50,227 nt of DNA, taken from assembly GCA_900088475.1 (NCBI GenBank), contig FLMG01003228.1, forward strand, positions 1,296 to 51,522. The letters run 5' to 3'. Source of the stretch: Hyphochytrium catenoides. Lineage: Eukaryota; Sar; Hyphochytriomycetes; Hyphochytriales; Hyphochytriaceae. Positions 20,429-36,662 of the stretch are shown piece by piece. The notes beneath the pieces were generated by a model. It saw only the letters and a program-made list of their open reading frames with translations. It did not search any database and was not told where the DNA came from. A program made the translations under genes and the position numbers. Each line of letters starts with the position of its first letter. Position 1 is the stretch's first letter.

Positions 20429-20718
20429 GGTGTAGGAGGGACCCAAACAATGGCGAAGCAAGTTAAACAGGTCGAGTTGAAGAGAAAAGTAGGAGTCTGC
20501 GCTGCAACGAAGGGATTCCCAACTGCGATGGTGTTCTCAGTTCGTCTGAAAAGAAAGCTGCTGGCGGCCGGCGCTGACAGAAGCGGCGCGAGAGAAGGGG
20601 CAGTGGAGAGGAAGATGAAGACGGATGCTTGCCGGGGATTGATGATTGAGGTCAGTCGCTGCTTGACACTCTACATCACCCCTTCATGTCTCTCTTTCCT
20701 CCTCTCTCCCTCTTTCTC

Positions 20719-20763
<45 letters not shown>

Positions 20764-21964
20764 TTCTCTCTCTCTCTCTTCTCTCTCTCTCTTCTCTCTC
20801 TCTCTCTTCCATATCCATAGTCGAGTGCTCTGTCTCGTTAGTATCCAATGCCTCAGTCTCTTCTGCTCTTGGAACCTTCGATTTCTGAAGCAGAAAAAAG
20901 AAAGATCAGACTCCCAAAACAGTCTGAGGCATGCCCACCCAACGCCTTAGTAAATAATGTTAGGGATGGGTGGGTTACCAGTGGCAGCCGCACAAACAAA
21001 ACCTTCGATCAGATCCATCAACCTCTTGTTTTGTTAGTCAAAACCATGCTCCTCTCCCACCCAGCCTCTACCTAATGTACCTACCTAATATCTGTTTCCA
21101 TCTTGGTCTGGCCACCCATCCTCTGAGAAGCCTTGAATTCTGAATATATTGTACTTGATATGATGTATACCAGATTATGATATATATCTATCCAAAATAG
21201 GCCCACCATTCCACTCTTCAACTGGACTCCATATTTGACTTCAAACTCACTTCATAAGTCAAGAATGAGGGATACGGATGTAAAATCTACAGCCTCTCTG
21301 TCAGGAATAACTGTCAGAATCGCAATTCTGAAGTCTGAGGGTCTGAAGGTGGTTAGAGAAAGCTTCGAAACGGAAGAGAAGCTCCAGATGGAGATGCTGA
21401 GCTTCGCATCTGAGTGTTCGATTTTTTTGGTGGGAAAGAAGGAGGAAGCTGTATCTACACAGGCGGAGAGAATCTGCTGACGGCTGAAAGGGCGGATCAG
21501 AGGTCCCAGCAACCACGTTAGTCCAGCATAGTTGAAACAATTACAGCAAGAGATTGCAAAGGACCAAAGCTGTCCCGCATACTGGCACGCCGATCTCAAG
21601 AAGGACAGTAAGATTCTGGACGCAGGTCTTTGGCAGGACTACTCCTACTTTGCCACAAGCGCCTCAAGAATTAGTAGTCGCATTTACCCTATCTACTAGC
21701 GAACCTGAACGTCCCACCGTCTTGTACAGCCCTTCTCCTGACTTCATGAATGGGAAGCTCCCTCAAATTCGTTAATGGGCTATGAGTCTCACGGCGACGG
21801 GTGACGCGATGGCCACGAAGATATCCACCGAATACGTGTATGCATGTGATAGATGGTGGCCAAGCTCTGAATGTCCCAAGCTTTTCTGAAAATGTTAGCG
21901 GTGATCGAACGTAAGACATGTTCATTGTGAAACGTCTTCCTGCCAAAGACACCGGAGAAGAGGC
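20429..21964. promoter_or_regulatory. Long divergent intergenic region, Caprin-like / MDM2-like
   Basis: About 1.5 kb separate two head-to-head genes. It holds the CT microsatellite at 20715-20812 and an AT-rich patch with TATATAT-like steps near 21140-21195. A small open frame at 21235-21480 (81 codons) has no recognisable domain. Both promoters should lie here. A 5' untranslated exon of either gene cannot be excluded. Confidence 0.4.
20715..20812. repeat. (CT)n microsatellite
   Basis: This is a nearly uninterrupted CT-dinucleotide tract of about 100 bp with occasional TTT breaks. It lies between the divergent Caprin-like and MDM2-like genes. Confidence 0.95.
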
Positions 21965-23556
21965 ATGGCTCCGACCTCGAATGGCCGGTCCAAAGGGAGA
22001 GGCAAAACGACATCAAGCAAGTCTGTCAAGACCAAGAAAGCTTCGAAAAGCAAGACATCAGCGACAACGAACAAGCGGAAGAAGAGGATCTCTCGGAAGC
22101 CAAGCAAAAGTAAGAAACAAAGAAGTCGAGGACTGGGGAGCGGTTTGTCAACAATCAAGCTCAGATGCAGTTCCCTGCTACGCCCTGTTTTTGGCTTGGA
22201 AGTGGGCGCGACTGTGACGAGAGGAGAGGCCGTGAAGAAGCTTTGGCAGTATATTAAGGCTAACCGGCTGCAGGATCCATTTGACGGTCGCTCTGTCATT
22301 TGTGATGAAACGCTGCGACGGTTGTTTGGTGTCAGCAAGATCTCAATGTGAGTCATTTGTTACTTGGCTCCGAGTACTTTGTCCGTCGAGCTTTAACTTC
22401 TTCCTCCGCACCTCCGGTACCTAGGCTTGACATCCCTGGAGCTCTTGCGAAGCATCTATCTATTCATCAGGAACCCCACGCAGATGGGGAGAGCACTCTA
22501 ACACGGGTTTCCAGTCCTGTCAGAGAAGTTGGTGACGAGGAGGTGATGGGCGTTTCTCCGGCCTTTCAAAGAATGATCCAGCAAACTCTCAAGTTGAGAA
22601 AGAGAAGCTCTGATGTTGCATCGACTGACTATGCGAAACTGACCCGAAGGCACGCTTTGCGCTGGCTAGGAAAGTATCTGATCGCGGCCGGTTTAAGGGT
22701 GCGTCACTTACATTGCTTAAGAATCTCATACCCATACGGGACTTCTCTGATAAGCTTCATGCTCTCTATCCCACTGGCCCATAGCGCAAGGGCATCAGTC
22801 TAATCGAATGTGATGATCTGCTGAGGGAGCTTTTCAAGGTACTGCATTGCCAATATTATCCATCGGCTCACCTTTTTAGGCTCCTGACGGTCTGCTCGTC
22901 GATCATAGGTCAGGACGTTCTCCATTCACGAAGCAAAAGGGCTCGTCAACCGCCATCTCCAGCCCCTTCATCATAGCGGGGAATTCCCTGATTGCGGTCG
23001 GACTTCTCAAGTTCCAGTTGCCAAACTCTCCAACGCTCAGGACTTGACGGTAGAACATCACGAACCTAAATCTCTCAAGGACTTCGCGCATTCCTTGCTT
23101 GATCCTCCAGTTGCAGAAGAGTTTTTGGGCTGGGCTCACAGAAGTCAAGCGACCCAGAAGTGCAAGGCGAGCACCAAGAGCTATGAAAGAGTTCTCTCTG
23201 CCTGGCTAGAAAACAAGACTTCGCAAACTTCACCCTCGGACTTCTCACCCAAGGCTTCGGAAGCAGGCAGGAGTCAGGCAGCATCATCTGAAGATGACAC
23301 TTTGTGCATCATCTGCATGGAAAAGCCACGAAATGCGAGCTTGGTAAGTGGTTACGTAGCCTTCCTCAGTGCAGGTTTAAGGGACGGTACAGTTCCTAAC
23401 GTTTATGCTGCTGTCTCAACCTTGTCTTTCCAGGTGCATGGAAAGAGTGGGCACCAGGTGTGTTGTCTCAAATGCGCCAAAGACCTAAAGAAGCGTCGTC
23501 ATCCGTGCCCCGTGTGCCGCAAGGGTATTGACCTCATCATTGAGAACTATCTATAG
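21965..23556 (+). CDS. MDM2-like protein: SWIB + MDM2-type SWIB + C-terminal RING
   Basis: Five exons (21965-22347, 22425-22698, 22785-22838, 22909-23343 and 23434-23556) encode 422 aa. Residues 1-60 are very basic, as in a nuclear or DNA-binding tail. Residues about 66-139 form a canonical SWIB domain (VKKLWQYIKANRLQDP, VICDETLRRLFGV, ending in AKHL). Residues about 172-256 form a second domain that fits the p53-binding SWIB domain of MDM2 (LRWLGKYLIAAGL, then DDLLRELFKVRTFSIHEAKGL). Residues 370-422 are a C-terminal RING with the MDM2/MDMX signature: CIICMEKPRN, VHGKSGH, CAKDLKKR, PCPVCR, ending LIIENYL in the same register as the MDM2 C-terminus. This is a probable E3 ubiquitin ligase. No RanBP2 zinc finger or strong acidic domain is visible. 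An intron splits the RING. It is tail-to-tail with SF-assemblin. Confidence 0.88.
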
Positions 23557-23730: not shown

Positions 23731-25082
23731 TCACATATCCGTGGAGTTTATTATTTTGAGCGACTCCTGCAGTTTAGCCGTATATCTGTTTAGCGCCTCA
23801 ACGATCTCATCATCTTCACGCTCGCGGGTCTGAGACAACCAACCAATCAGAGAAGTTAGATCCACCTTTGCAATAAAGATACCGAGACGATATACCTGGC
23901 TTTCAGCTGTGAGTTGGTTCTTGAGGTTTGCTACTTCTTCCGACACGAAAGCGTGGAATTTCTCGTCCCCTTTAGCCTTGGTCTTCACTGCCTCCTCTAG
24001 AATCGTTTTCACAGTGCCATACTGCTTGGCTCGGTCCGTCTGAGAAATGCGATAACGTGTTATATGCGGCCTAGAAGTTGAAAGTAGATCCCTCACTGTG
24101 GTAAACGAGGTACCTTCTCCGTTGTAAACCTCTCGGCCACTTCCTGCTCGTGGTCTGCTAACCGCTTCAAGATCTCTCCCTCTCGTGCTAGTCGGGATTC
24201 CTTTTCAGCTTTGAAAGCCTTCTGAAAGTCGTGAAGCTGCTTGGTGAGCTCCACATTCTTCCTTTCAATGTCCTCTGGAATCCGCTTCCTTTCATACTCA
24301 AACCTTTCCTCTAGGTTCTGCAACTTTTTGTTCTGTAAGGCGCCAAGATTGTGGCATCAGGAGCCATGCGCATGCAGAGACCACACTCAACAGACTGATT
24401 ATATCTTACCAAGTCCACTACCTTCGCCTCTACTCCGTCTAGGCGGAGGCGGAGAACATTCTCAAAGCGCGTTGTCATAGAGAGTAGTTCAGTCTCAGCC
24501 CAAACCTAGTAGCCAAGATAGCGTTACGTCAGAGAGACAAGGGTTGTGAGTGGAAGAGTAAAGAGCTGCTGTCATGGACCTGAATTGACTTATTGATCTC
24601 CATCCGACGCTTGATTTCTGCGTTGAGGTGCCGCTCCATCTGTGCTAGCTCATCGTGAAGCTCGTTGATGCGGTGCTCGTCATGTTCCCTTCTTTGCTGC
24701 AGAGAAGGGGCAACCAATCACTCTCAGGGTTCAGTTTTGATGGACAGGAATTCAAGCCTACCCGAGTGCCAATCTTCATACTCTTGTCAAACTCTACAAA
24801 ATCTTCCATGATCTGGTTGAGCTTGACCTTGGTAAGGGTAGACGAGAGGACGGCGCTTCGCTCCAACGAATCCGGTGTGACCTCGAGGTCCTTTTCGGAG
24901 GGCCCGGCGTCCGGTGGTGGCAGTAGTGATGGCGCGGAATCATTCTTCATTGACATCAACGGGGCTTCTGCAGCCTCCTGGGATGGAAAAGGTGCCACTG
25001 GGGATGACCCTTCTAGGGTATCTCCTAGTCCTAGAGGACTCTCCCCATTTGAGGGCTGGCCATCAACAGTTGGACTTTCCAT
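23731..25082 (-). CDS. SF-assemblin / beta-giardin family protein
   Basis: Six exons (25082-24762, 24696-24580, 24505-24410, 24332-24114, 24039-23896 and 23829-23731) encode 331 aa. An N-terminal head of about 80 residues rich in Ser, Pro and acidic residues is followed by an uninterrupted coiled coil to the end. Features such as FVEFDKSMKIGTR, INELHDELAQMERHLNAEIKRRMEINKSI and ERKNVELTKQLHDFQKAF match SF-assemblins. These proteins build the striated microtubule-associated fibres (basal-body roots) of flagellated algae and protists. Assignment rests on the coiled-coil pattern and recognisable segments; other coiled-coil proteins are unlikely but not excluded. Confidence 0.85.
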
Positions 25083-25843: not shown

Positions 25844-26899
25844 TTACACCAGTTTGTTCATGACGTTCAGGATCTCATTGAACTCAATATTTTCTTTGAA
25901 CTTCTTGGGAAGAATCTGGTTCTGTTCGTTAGGCTTGACCTTAATACCGCCTTCTGCTGTGATGGTCCATCCTTCCGCTGCGATAAGGATAGGAGTAAGC
26001 TTGCCGCGAATCCAAACAGCTTTAAAAGAATAGCGTTAATGTCTCCTACCTTCTACCAGCTGCTTGAACCTATTATCGTCTAGACTGAGTGCCTCCTTAA
26101 GAACGGCCTTAGGTACCACCTGGGATAGACGACAAGAAATAAGGTACATGCCTTCGCCTTTGAGCATCGATCGAGGCATTTCACACCTGATACGTGATAG
26201 AGATTGCTGCTATGATGAAAGTTCTGATGGAATCGAAGAAGCCTGGAACAGTCTCAGCCATTTCATTGTTCTCTGCCCAAAATTCCTGCAATTACTGAAG
26301 GGTTGGCACTGGGAGGCAGTAAAAGGGACATTAACATAGTCAACTAACCCTGAACTTCGCCGATTCAAGGTTAGCGTGGTGATCAATAAGATGCTTGATT
26401 GTTGCCGTCTGTGTAAGGTACAAGGTTAGGATCAAGGATGATTGAGTGTGCATATCCTCCACCCTTACCTCTTGATACTGAGCTGGAATAAGCGCCCGAA
26501 CCAGGAAGAAGTCATTGCTTGGCAANNNNNNNNNNNNNNNNNNNNNNNNNNNNNNNNNNNNNNNNNNNNNNNTCGTTAGAACATCCTCATTATAATAGGA
26601 TGGGAAGAGCTGATATAGGGTCAGAAGGGCAAGGTTGGACTCGAAGTCGTAGGTTCTAGTCTTGATTTGTTCTGACACGAAGTCCTCCAGCAGTGGGATG
26701 ATATTAGGGTTATAAGGGTCCTCTTCCAGCGCATCCCGCACTTCCAAAGATAATGTGGTTGGTTCTGCAAAAGATGTCAGCTTATGAAGCGTCCAGCAGA
26801 AGACTTCGATAACCTACCGTAGCTTGGATCCTCCACACTCTGCTGTGACAGGAAGAAGCTTGAAGCCTTTCTGTGGTCAAAGCCGCTGATGACTCTCAT
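25844..26899 (-). CDS. EIF3K: Translation initiation factor eIF3 subunit K (interrupted by assembly gap)
   Basis: Six exons: 26899-26818, 26764-26469, 26408-26349, 26285-26187, 26119-26050 and 26019-25844. eIF3k is a small peripheral subunit of eIF3 that pairs with eIF3l. Family marks include NPNIIPLLEDFVSEQIKTRT, then YDFESNLALLTLYQLFP (compare human AYDLEANLAVLKLYQFNP), NDFFLVRALIPAQYQE, and FDSIRTFIIAAISITYQ, followed by the winged-helix end. Exon 2 contains 47 unknown bases (26526-26572), hiding about 16 residues. Exon phases on both sides agree with a gap length of that size modulo 3. The first exon (27 codons) is weakly conserved, so the start is less certain than the rest. Confidence 0.9.
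26526..26572. other. Assembly gap (47 N)
   Basis: Unknown bases lie inside exon 2 of the eIF3k gene. The surrounding exon keeps frame across it. Confidence 1.
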
Positions 26900-32769: not shown

Positions 32770-35700
32770 ATGTCAGGCCCAATGTCAGCTGCACGACCTG
32801 TGCCAGGGTCGGCTCGAGGAGAGGATACACCTTCTACCATGGCCACCTCAAGCAGGAAAGCAAGCTATCCCCCAGGTTGGCCCGAGCCCCTAGATGCATC
32901 ACACGCGCTCTCTCGTATCAGGTTTACACCTCGAGAGGGTACTAACCACCATTATGAATGTAGGGTCAAAGGGTGGGCTTGCCACGTCCCGACCGACTTC
33001 CACCCTGGCGATGGCTGGTAGCTCGACGCTCTATACCTCCCAACCTCCAAATAATAATGCGCCCCCGCATATCCCGCCTCTGTTTCCGCCGCTAGGAACT
33101 TCACGGCAGTTTACACCGCTGCCCGGCCCGCAAGCAACAAATAGAGGTGAGAGAACAGATAACTCTCATTGTCATTCCTGGTTTGATGTCATCTCTAAAG
33201 ACCTGCTCAGTGGTGCCCATCACAGGCTCTTCGCAGGGAAACTATCTCAGCAGCGGGGTCCCACCTAACTCTAGCGCACGCCCTCCTTTCCAGTCCCCAG
33301 CCTTTCCCACCACGCAGCGCCAAGCTGCGGTGCCTGGTCACGCCATGCAGTCTCTGTCGGATGGCCAAGCTTCCCTACCGTCTCAAAGAGTAGCACCAGC
33401 ACCAGTCCACCTTCATCCAGCAGCTCAGCAGGTTCTAAGTAACGGGCAGATGCGACCCCTTTCGGGCCAGCTGCCTCAGAACTCGTCCCGGCCTTCTACG
33501 CATCGACAGGCAGAGCACGGGTCAGCCCGTCCCCACGGTCAGCTCTGCAACAGTATCTCTCATCCGTCACTTGTGCGCTCATCCTCTTCTTTCAGCTGCT
33601 TTACCCGTGGTTACCGAGCAATATGAAAAAGAGGATCCTCTGGTTCTAAAGTCCGTGCTTGGCTATAGTGGACAGTTCCTTAACACCTTGCACTATCATC
33701 CCACGGACCCAGATCTATACATCGTCAGGTAGAAAGGATCGCAGGCACGAAAATTCCTTGGTGGGAGATCAAAACTGACAATGAAATCTCTGTTCAACAG
33801 CTTAGGCGGATCTGTGTGCATTGCATCCTTCTCCAACTCCCGAAACCAGGAGTATCTTCGTGGCCATGATGAGAAGGTATCCGCGCTCGCGGTATCCCCC
33901 TCAGGCTCTTTTATCGTCTCGGGCCAGTTAGGCACCACGAAGGATCCGGTCGGTCATCCTTGTCGCGGTTTTCGTCCACCATGCACAGCTACTTATCGTT
34001 GCCTGTTAGAATGCCCAAGCTCCGGTGATAGTTTGGGATCTTGCATCCAAGAAGGAAGTTTTACGGCTTCATGGACTAAGGAATGCGGTGCAGCGGCTTG
34101 ATGTTTCTCCTGATAATAGACTTCTTGCAGGCACCGGCACGGACGGAAGGTTTTATCTCTGGGATCTGCAGGTATGAGCGCAGGTGGAGAGCCATAGCAT
34201 TGACAAGCCTTGTGAGCTCCGCTTCCCGCAAAACCCTCACTCTTACCTAGCCTCCTTATCAACTGAGAACAGAATGGAGAAGTAGTTGTTCAGAAGCAGT
34301 TCCAGACTTCAGTGCAAGTGTGCTGCTGGGTAAGTATGACAGGCTCCGGCCGCCGTCCGGAGTACAGATTAGCTCTCTCTACTTCCAGTCAGGTGAGAAC
34401 CATGCATAGCACCCGACGCTTACTGTTTCTTTCTCCTTGTTGGCGGCACTCCATGAACTTTAGTGGGGAAGAGCGGTAGATGCGTTGTATGGTTCTTGGT
34501 CCGCCCTCTTTGTTGTCCGTGCTCATATCTCTCTGGCTATTGCAGCCATCGCTTTCCCCTAGCTGTTTCTTTTGGATTGGCTTTGGCATCTATCACTAGA
34601 CGAATAAGAAAGTTCTCAGACTAACCTCCTGGTGCTGATGCAGGCGATGATGGCTCGTCTTCAGTATGATGTGGGAGCCATGCAGTACGTCATGGATCTA
34701 AAGCCTTTTAGTCTTCCAGCTACTGGGCTTATGAGGGACTATCACTCAGCTCGTGTCACGCCTAAGAAGGACTTTTTGCTCTGTTCTACGAGGTCAGTCC
34801 CATAACCCACGCTATTTTCTCTCTTCAGTCTTGAACTTCAACTGAAGCCTTTGGCTGCCTCGCATGTGATCGTGCTCGCTTCGTCCGCTGCAACGATCGT
34901 GTGCCCCGAACGTAACTCTGGGCTCCTACCCACCGTCTAGCGGTAACGAGCTGCTGGTCTTTCGAAATGATCCACCGCTTTTCCGCGCGAGTGTGCCAGT
35001 CTCAGCCAATGGAGGTAAGCCGTGGTGGTATGGTTGTGCAGAAGCGATCTGGTCATCAGAGGCCTGACTACTTGCCATGCGTAGCTCTATCTCTTGCCAT
35101 CTGCGCCACTACGGGCTTCGTCTACTGCGGATCGGGAGATGGCGTGGTCAGAAAGCTGTTTGGGGAGGATGTCAAGTGGAACCTTTATGCAGAAGTTCTA
35201 CTTTATGGAGGCGTAGTGAGCTTGTCACTAAACGCAGCGGGTAAACGGCATTGGAACGTCTCTCTGTCAGTGTTTCCTTCTCTGTGCTCTCTTTGCAGGA
35301 TTCTTTGTGCTTGTCCTTTTCTCCTTTACGTTTCCCATGGCTATTTTATGAGGACTCACGGTACGCACCGTATCTTAAAGGAACGGAACTACTTGCTGGG
35401 ACTTCTGCTGGCAAGATTTATAGAATAGCGACGGAGAGTATGGCCATTACGGAGGTTTCTTCCTCTCACACGGGACGCATCACTGCAGTGGTCTACAGCG
35501 CCCATCCTCCCGCGCTTTGTACAGCGTGTGAGGACGGAATGCTCCGAGTATACAGCCCCACCACTCTAGCGCTTATGGCCCACGTCCGTGAGAAGTCATC
35601 TCCTACCTCGCTATGCCTCATGGAAGGGATAGCTCAGCAAGCGAGTACTGGCAGTGTTATCTGGATAGTCAGTGGCTGGGTGGATGGGACTATCCGATGC

Positions 35701-36662
35701 CATGAAGCGCTGAGTGGACAGAGGCTCTGGGAGATCGCAAATGCTCATCGGTAAGCTGATCCTAACGGCGTCCCCCGTCCTCCTGCATCACTGTCAACAC
35801 GCGTTAACCTGTCTTCTCACACTAACGGGGTCTCTTGGAACTTTCTGCAGTGGGCCCATCACCACCGTCGCCTCGTCTTCTACATATGTCGTCTCGGGCG
35901 GCTTAGACGGCAACGTAAGAATCTGGTCCAGCAAGTCGAGGGAACTTACCATTGGATTTCGGGAGCACTCCAAGGCTGTATCCAAGGTACAAAGTCTCCG
36001 CCATAAAAAGAAACGCCAATTTTTCACTGACTCTGTGACTCTAGGTCATTACCGATATCAAGGATCCCAAGCTTCTTCACTCGTGTGGTCAGGACCGCAG
36101 TGTGTTCACCTATGACTTGCAGAAAGAGAAGAGAATCGTGGGTCATTCTTCGAAAGAAGGTTGGGTGCTTCCGGAAGTGATTTAAGTGGGTCAAGAGCAA
36201 TAGTAGCTGACACATCGCACTTCACATTTTCTGCTTGGTCAGGCTGCTTTCATGCCCTCTCTCAGCGGCGCGATAGTGAGAATGAGCTGGTGACGGGAAG
36301 TTCTGATGGCAGAATTCACTTCTGGGACTGTGACGTGGCAGAGGCCGTAGCCTCTCTTGCTGATCCGACGCGTGCGAAAGTTAATGCCATTAAGGTAATG
36401 ACAGAAGGATGTCGTCCCTTAGTTAACATCACCGCTTGAAGCTGATGTCACTGTCTTTTAGGTCTCACCCTCTGGACGCCTGGTGGCCATTGTGGGAGAC
36501 GATTCTCTGGTCAAGGTCTTTAATTTGCAGCTAGACGCTGTCGTGTCGGTGCGGCCTGGGCACGCGGATGCGGTACTCGATGTCTGCTGGGGGTCAGATG
36601 ATCGTAATCTATACACCGTCGGAGCAGACGGCTGTCTTTGTTCGTGGGGCTTTGTGGGCTGA
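32770..36662 (+). CDS. CFAP52: CFAP52/WDR16-like WD40 flagellar protein with N-terminal extension
   Basis: Fifteen exons: 32770-32875, 32964-33146, 33226-33552, 33596-33728, 33801-33948, 34010-34171, 34273-34329, 34644-34792, 34941-35014, 35085-35240, 35381-35750, 35851-35986, 36045-36159, 36243-36394 and 36462-36662. They encode 822 aa, against about 620 in human. CFAP52 is a doublet-microtubule inner protein of motile cilia. WD repeats start near residue 210 (VLGYSGQFLNTLHYHPTDPDLY, then GHDEKVSALAVSPSG) and run to the end (GHADAVLDVCWGSDDRNLYTVGADGCLCSWGF). The order of blades follows CFAP52, including WDGTIRCHEALSGQRLWEIANAHRG-like and GGLDGNVRIW segments. The first 200 or so residues are Pro/Ser/Gln-rich and not part of the family. 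The start is set by phase agreement over the first introns; it is less certain than the WD part. Confidence 0.85.

Follow-up and report, generated by a model that had tools for sequence, protein, structure and literature searches.

The window, a stretch of 50,227 nucleotides of DNA, carries a gene, on contig C301 of a 42.5-Mb assembly of 1105 contigs, whose protein combines two SWIB domains with a C-terminal MDM2-type RING. An SF-assemblin gene is its 3' neighbour, and a CFAP52 gene, which we used to trace the lineage of the host, lies further downstream. The features are the following:

21965..23556, forward strand: SWIB-SWIB-RING gene, five exons, 422 aa, stop TAG at 23554-23556 (splicing and translation, Pfam)
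21965-22347, 22425-22698, 22785-22838, 22909-23343 and 23434-23556, forward strand: exons 1 to 5 (splicing and translation)
21965..22132, forward strand: basic N-terminal extension, residues 1-56, with 22 K/R, 0 D/E and 19 S/T
22163..22458, forward strand: SWIB1, residues 67-139, split by intron 1 (Pfam, 2.9e-21)
22348-22424, forward strand: intron 1, 77 nt, GTGAGT..CTAG, interrupts SWIB1
22636..22965, forward strand: SWIB2, residues 199-256, spread over exons 2, 3 and 4 (Pfam, PDB, alignment, tree)
22699-22784, forward strand: intron 2, 86 nt, GTGCGT..ATAG
22839-22908, forward strand: intron 3, 70 nt, GTACTG..ATAG
22909..23343, forward strand: exon 4, residues 238-382, stop-free; covers the latter half of SWIB2, the linker (residues 260-366) and the RING up to residue 382
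23305..23553, forward strand: MDM2-type C2H2C4 RING, residues 370-422, split by intron 4 (alignment to MDM2)
23344-23433, forward strand: intron 4, 90 nt, in frame and stop-free, interrupts the RING
23734..24356, reverse strand: SF-assemblin gene, two exonic frames matching PF06705 (2.6e-14 and 2.3e-8)
33625..36662, forward strand: CFAP52 gene, 12 exons, 628 aa, 5' end not defined

The ATG at 21965 is the first in frame after an upstream stop, and splicing at four introns, all with GT..AG borders, gives a protein in which a basic N-terminus is followed by SWIB1, SWIB2 and the RING; the full-length protein matches the Pfam families SWIB (4e-26) and zf-C3HC4_3 (6.9e-11). The coordinates, the length of 422 residues and the four introns proposed in the sequence-only reading were reproduced exactly. 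That reading had also named an assignment of the SWIB and RING parts to different genes as a reason to give it up; exon 4 speaks against such a split, because this single stop-free exon runs from inside SWIB2 to inside the RING, so that both belong to the same gene irrespective of the remaining exons. A gap-free alignment of the RING to MDM2 is obtained only if intron 4 is spliced out. Retention of this intron is possible; it would add 30 residues between zinc ligands two and three and could switch the RING off. Upstream of the gene, at 20650-20820, there is a CT-rich stretch of low complexity that reads as Ser-Leu repeats.

The neighbouring genes tell us in which kind of organism the gene resides. 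The best protein match of CFAP52 is from Phytophthora fragariae (552 bits, 42% identity), two further proteins score 521 and 511 bits, and the next matches that are named by organism are from Naegleria (374 bits) and Diacronema (358 bits); the 10 PDB sequences listed reach 151-189 bits. In a tree of 15 rows with no animals among them, CFAP52 groups with Phytophthora and one other protein at 84/85, which is not firm. SF-assemblin is a flagellar-root protein of protists. A search for an exact 29-base stretch of the 18S gene, as a further marker of lineage, came up empty. An algal host was ruled out: no match to chlorophyll-binding proteins was found in the assembly, and the same search was positive in the Synechococcus control. 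The host is very probably a heterotrophic, flagellated, stramenopile-like protist and not an animal, as judged from these sequences, in keeping with the flagellated protist that had been supposed initially. Since CFAP52 matches Phytophthora best and the next gene encodes SF-assemblin, contamination with animal DNA is unlikely. More broadly, we regard an artefact, be it animal contamination, a chimera in the contig or an error in the gene model, as a most improbable explanation. The gene model is known from sequence alone, the RING is animal-like, and a run of 47 Ns at 26526-26572, a scaffold gap, separates the gene from CFAP52, so that the lineage of CFAP52 reaches the gene only across this gap. 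SF-assemblin, however, begins about 175 bases downstream of the gene on the near side of the gap and on the same gap-free stretch; SWIB1, which is unknown in animal MDM2, is spliced with the other domains into one open model; and the four GT..AG introns of 70-90 nt fall within the sizes of the 11 introns of CFAP52 (58-251 nt).

The RING is clearly of the MDM2 type by its sequence. All eight zinc ligands (C370, C373, H384, H389, C393, C396, C407 and C410), assigned from the residues that we take to be the ligands in MDM2, align with their MDM2 counterparts at an offset of 68 in the 491-residue chain, and 28 of 52 aligned residues (54%) are identical to human MDM2. In the PDB, MDM2 ranks first with 65.8 bits (E 1.3e-17), followed by MDM4 (53.1), RNF4 (34), MEX3C (26.3), cIAP (23.6) and MUL1 (19.4). 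The motifs VHGKSGH, CAKDLKKR and PCPVCR and the identity of roughly one half to human MDM2, both part of the initial description, are thus present, and the low scores of cIAP and MUL1 argue against a RING of the IAP or MUL1 type, which that description had set out as the outcome that would count against it. R411 directly follows the last cysteine, as in MDM2, at what we take to be the linchpin position. The C-terminal tail of MDM2 matters for the activity of the RING dimer. The protist protein had been said to stop in the register of MDM2, and its tail does run in register, Y421 aligning with residue 489 of the 491-residue MDM2 chain 8bgu_F, but with L422 as its last residue it ends one residue short.

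A search with the RING alone among 5.77 billion proteins, with candidates limited to 0.55-1.75 times the length, gave 10 matches, every one with an MDM-type RING; the only named protein among them is an Mdm4-like protein of the sea anemone Actinia tenebrosa, and the remaining nine are, to judge from their sequences, presumably animal proteins as well. With the full-length protein, three matches were obtained among 8000 candidates scored, and the RING PF13920 is their sole listed domain. Neither search returned a vertebrate MDM2, so that relatives with few exact five-residue words in common with the query would be missed. In the assembly itself, seven matches to the RING were found, two of which are the exons of the SWIB-RING gene itself. 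The next one (C997:48929-49072, E 3.9e-8) belongs to an ORF whose RING has MDM2 as its best PDB match (38 bits vs 22 for MYLIP), and the other four, two on C892 and one each on C549 and C608, are weak (21-26 bits).

The basic extension of the protein likely serves nuclear localization or contact with nucleic acids, as its composition suggests; the "basic tail" of the sequence-only reading exists as a basic stretch, but it is an N-terminal extension and no tail. SWIB1 has its best PDB matches in UAF30 (1.3e-9), plant SWIB (3e-9) and SMARCD (7.7e-9), and it carries the tryptophan of the non-MDM2 SWIB domains (in KLWQYIK), which together with the Pfam match bears out its description as a first, canonical SWIB domain. 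It is of the kind found in UAF30 and SMARCD/SNF12, proteins of transcription and chromatin complexes, and the UAF30 match extends over residues 23-140 and so takes in part of the basic stretch too. The protist protein differs from UAF30 and SMARCD/SNF12 by the addition of SWIB2 and the RING; to our knowledge, these proteins have no RING. The tryptophan that is conserved in SWIB/MDM2 domains has been described as missing from the MDM2 proteins (PMC4721021).

SWIB2 resembles MDM2 precisely in this respect: Gly210 occupies the site of MDM2 Gly58, where other SWIB domains have the tryptophan. The Pfam SWIB match of the domain (E 1.4e-4, 22 bits) lies below the cut-off of 25 bits; with SWIB2 alone as the query against the PDB, the best 60 of 66 matches at E <= 10 are all MDM2 or MDM4, the best with an E value of 0.039. 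Identity to human MDM2 amounts to 19 of 57 residues (33%). Among the positions that we take to line the p53 pocket of MDM2 (54, 57, 58, 61, 67, 72 and others), the HMMER alignment shows five that are kept (L54=L206, L57=L209, G58=G210, F86=F236 and F91=F241) and hydrophobic exchanges at three (I61=L213, V93=I243 and I99=L249), and an isoleucine stands at MDM2 position 75; changed are Y67=R219, Q72=I223 and H96=A246, and Y100 falls into an alignment gap. The pocket residues that had been aligned by hand (Leu54, Gly58, Phe91 and hydrophobic residues at 61, 93 and 99) were all found at these positions. In Smith-Waterman comparisons, SWIB2 scores 61 against the human MDM2 SWIB fragment, above all of 2000 shuffles (z 9.9), as compared to 40 for UAF30, 32 for the plant SWIB and 29 and 18 for two further SWIB ORFs of the assembly (on C64 and C418, respectively). 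The assignment of the second SWIB domain to the p53-binding type of MDM2 is supported insofar as SWIB2 is nearer to MDM2 than to the other solved SWIB domains, but it has to be set against the Pfam score below the cut-off and against a higher pairwise score with SWIB1 (71, again above 2000 of 2000 shuffles), the SWIB1 piece being the longer one. This last comparison leads to another explanation: SWIB2 might be a diverged tandem copy of SWIB1 to which an MDM2-type RING was fused independently, and the domain order of MDM2 would then be a coincidence. The MDM2-like RING without a SWIB domain on C997 fits such a history. In contrast, MDM2 comes first in the PDB ranking of SWIB2, the glycine in place of the tryptophan is shared with MDM2, and in a tree of seven SWIB sequences SWIB2 and MDM2 form a pair (94/93), which long branches make weak and indecisive; a tree constrained to join SWIB1 and SWIB2 is worse by 7.46 log-likelihood units (p-AU 0.074) and is thus disfavoured without being rejected. 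We consider a coincidental likeness unlikely.

The protist protein shares with MDM2 and MDM4 a C2H2C4 RING at the C-terminus that agrees in ligand spacing, motif and end register, and N-terminal to it lies a SWIB domain of MDM2-like appearance; it differs by the additional canonical SWIB domain and the basic N-terminus. The C2H2C4 RING has been used as a criterion for MDM proteins, for which four domains are described (p53-binding, acidic, zinc and RING), some of them lost in several animal groups (PMC5543598). In the protist protein, an acidic central domain was not found, the most acidic window of 54 residues holding 10 D/E, and neither was a RanBP2-type zinc finger: Pfam gives no such match even at E values as high as 10, and residues 260-366 contain two cysteines. 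Because these two of the four MDM domains are missing, we do not file the protein as a member of the MDM2/MDM4 family; we see in it an MDM2-like variant whose way of working is probably that of MDM2. The Mdm4-like protein of Actinia (P0008) is 56% identical in the RING and ends at the same residue, but the RING is the sole precomputed domain listed for it, and it has a long acidic region. The alga Aureococcus is, as we take it, a stramenopile. "mdm2" homologues without p53 have been reported from this alga (PMC11371579); they are known by their KEGG name, and the word SWIB is absent from the text of that paper. Since this algal "mdm2" is already in print, we make no claim to the first MDM2-like gene outside of the animals, nor do we claim, with the open-access papers as the literature covered, that such a gene is unreported. 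Otherwise, MDM2 has been called specific to metazoans, with conservation extending from Trichoplax to human (PMC3789837), and has been treated as restricted to animals (PMC3789837, PMC10303687), in agreement with the starting assumption of an animal-lineage regulator, and a large survey of MDM proteins covered metazoan databases (PMC5543598).

What might such a protein do in a protist? As the best explanation of the whole, we consider it fairly likely that it acts in the nucleus as an E3 ubiquitin ligase, in the manner of MDM2. The RING would probably dimerise through its tail in MDM2 register and pass ubiquitin on from an E2, as its sequence suggests, and SWIB2 would provide a substrate groove for a short amphipathic helix, or helical degron, of a partner protein, in all likelihood not p53 but another transcription factor. 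By analogy to the SWIB domains of UAF30 and SMARCD/SNF12, SWIB1 and the basic N-terminus may tether the enzyme to chromatin or to a transcription complex. A chromatin-tethered ligase is plausible because MDM2 itself has a p53-independent, RING-dependent function at chromatin (PMC5439376); the chromatin role that had been proposed early on is inferred from the presence of SWIB1 and of the basic extension. The search of the same genome for p53-family genes, which the sequence-only reading had suggested, was performed: p53 (PF00870) was not detected in the assembly at E <= 10, a result that does not prove absence by itself since the control genomes of the tool gave no match either, and the control domain E2F/DP (PF02319) was found in the assembly, where six matches fall on three loci (C942, C596 and C404), the domain being split over two exons at C942 and C596. 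The lack of a PF00870 match, the detection of the E2F/DP control, and the report that p53 homologues occur only within Holozoa (PMC6981761) make p53 an unlikely substrate of the protist protein.

Two histories could have brought an MDM2-type ligase into this organism. It is tempting to speculate that SWIB-RING ligases of the MDM2 type are older than animals and p53, that a two-SWIB form survives in the protist, SWIB1 reading chromatin and SWIB2 taking the substrate, and that animals later turned the enzyme on p53; we hold this only tentatively. In the same tentative way, an MDM2-like gene may have been transferred horizontally from an animal and may then have gained SWIB1 and the basic N-terminus in the protist; with this history, too, the protein would act as an MDM2-like ligase. 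The RING of the protist is 56-62% identical to the ten animal-like MDM RINGs, which is as close as the anemone-like and other matches are to each other (54-60%); human MDM2 shares 44-54% with the ten and is nearer to the protist (54%) than to the anemone (48%). Moreover, no match of the RING search was marked as a protist, although the database includes EukProt and MMETSP, and transfer also agrees with the restriction of MDM2 to animals in the papers cited above. A tree of the RINGs (53 columns, 10 rows), as had been proposed at the outset, was calculated with seven of the ten matches, P0003, P0005 and P0009 being omitted as near copies; it has no firm branch and fails to separate the protist from the animal-like rows, and a group of the eight MDM rows that excludes the protist RING receives no support but is not rejected either (p-AU 0.51). 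An origin by transfer from an animal is therefore no less conceivable than ancient inheritance, and the initial proposal that the SWIB-RING ligase predates the control of p53 stays tentative. Several observations weigh against transfer: the divergence from human MDM2 is much greater in SWIB2 (33% identity) than in the RING (54%), the acidic domain and the RanBP2 finger are missing, and intron 4 lies inside the RING. The RING of human MDM2 is contained in one exon. GC3 points the same way, being equal in the gene and in CFAP52 (0.55 each), even though codon usage does not discriminate: the RSCU correlation between the two genes is 0.24, and a control with uniform codons has a mean of 0.00, a standard deviation of 0.14 and a maximum of 0.38.

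Our work suggests that the MDM2-like enzyme is older than its role with p53 in animals or has spread beyond it. With an MDM2-type SWIB-RING protein from a non-animal in which no p53 was detected, it becomes testable what the job of the ligase was before, or is without, p53, and the protein provides a natural SWIB groove and RING for comparison with the drug target MDM2. If transfer is true, nothing is learned about the history before the animals, but the uptake of an animal cell-cycle regulator by a protist would be striking in its own right.

Finally, the other SWIB and RING ORFs of the assembly bring large DNA viruses into consideration. Pfam SWIB has three matches in the assembly: the SWIB-RING gene and two small ORFs, L001:1414-1722 on C418 (255 kb) and L003:1501-1725 on C64 (275 kb), both on contigs with dense, apparently intron-free ORFs. 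A SWIB domain of the SMARCD/SNF12 type was not seen outside the SWIB-RING gene among these three matches, a search that may miss an intron-split or diverged one, and the SWIB-RING protein may be the only SWIB protein of the host. An ATP-dependent DNA ligase ORF and an RPB1-like ORF adjoin the SWIB ORF on C64, and it is our impression, and only that, that C64 and C418 resemble a large DNA virus. Such a virus might be the source of the whole gene or of its RING or SWIB part, as might be suggested by these two SWIB ORFs with their surroundings, by the ORF with the MDM2-like RING on the similar contig C997, and by the report of a SWIB protein in a Chrysochromulina virus (PMC12085832). We think that a viral origin is very unlikely: the gene has four introns, and CFAP52 has 11; SWIB1 scores higher against UAF30 and the plant SWIB (125 and 123) than against the SWIB ORFs on the two contigs (107 and 74); a search of viral contigs with six peptide patterns each for the SWIB-RING protein (19 pattern matches) and the C997 ORF (10) confirmed no relative; and no match to the NCLDV capsid was found in the assembly, in a search without positive control. 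The C997 ORF (L005:1255-1659) is a single exon on a contig whose ORFs are closely packed and apparently lack introns, and it encodes two RanBP2-like C4 fingers followed by the C-terminal RING; the fingers match weakly those of RBM10, FUS and ZNF265, which we take to be RanBP2-type and after which we name them. The assembly thus contains parts of animal MDM2 in two separate genes, the SWIB-RING gene and the C997 ORF.
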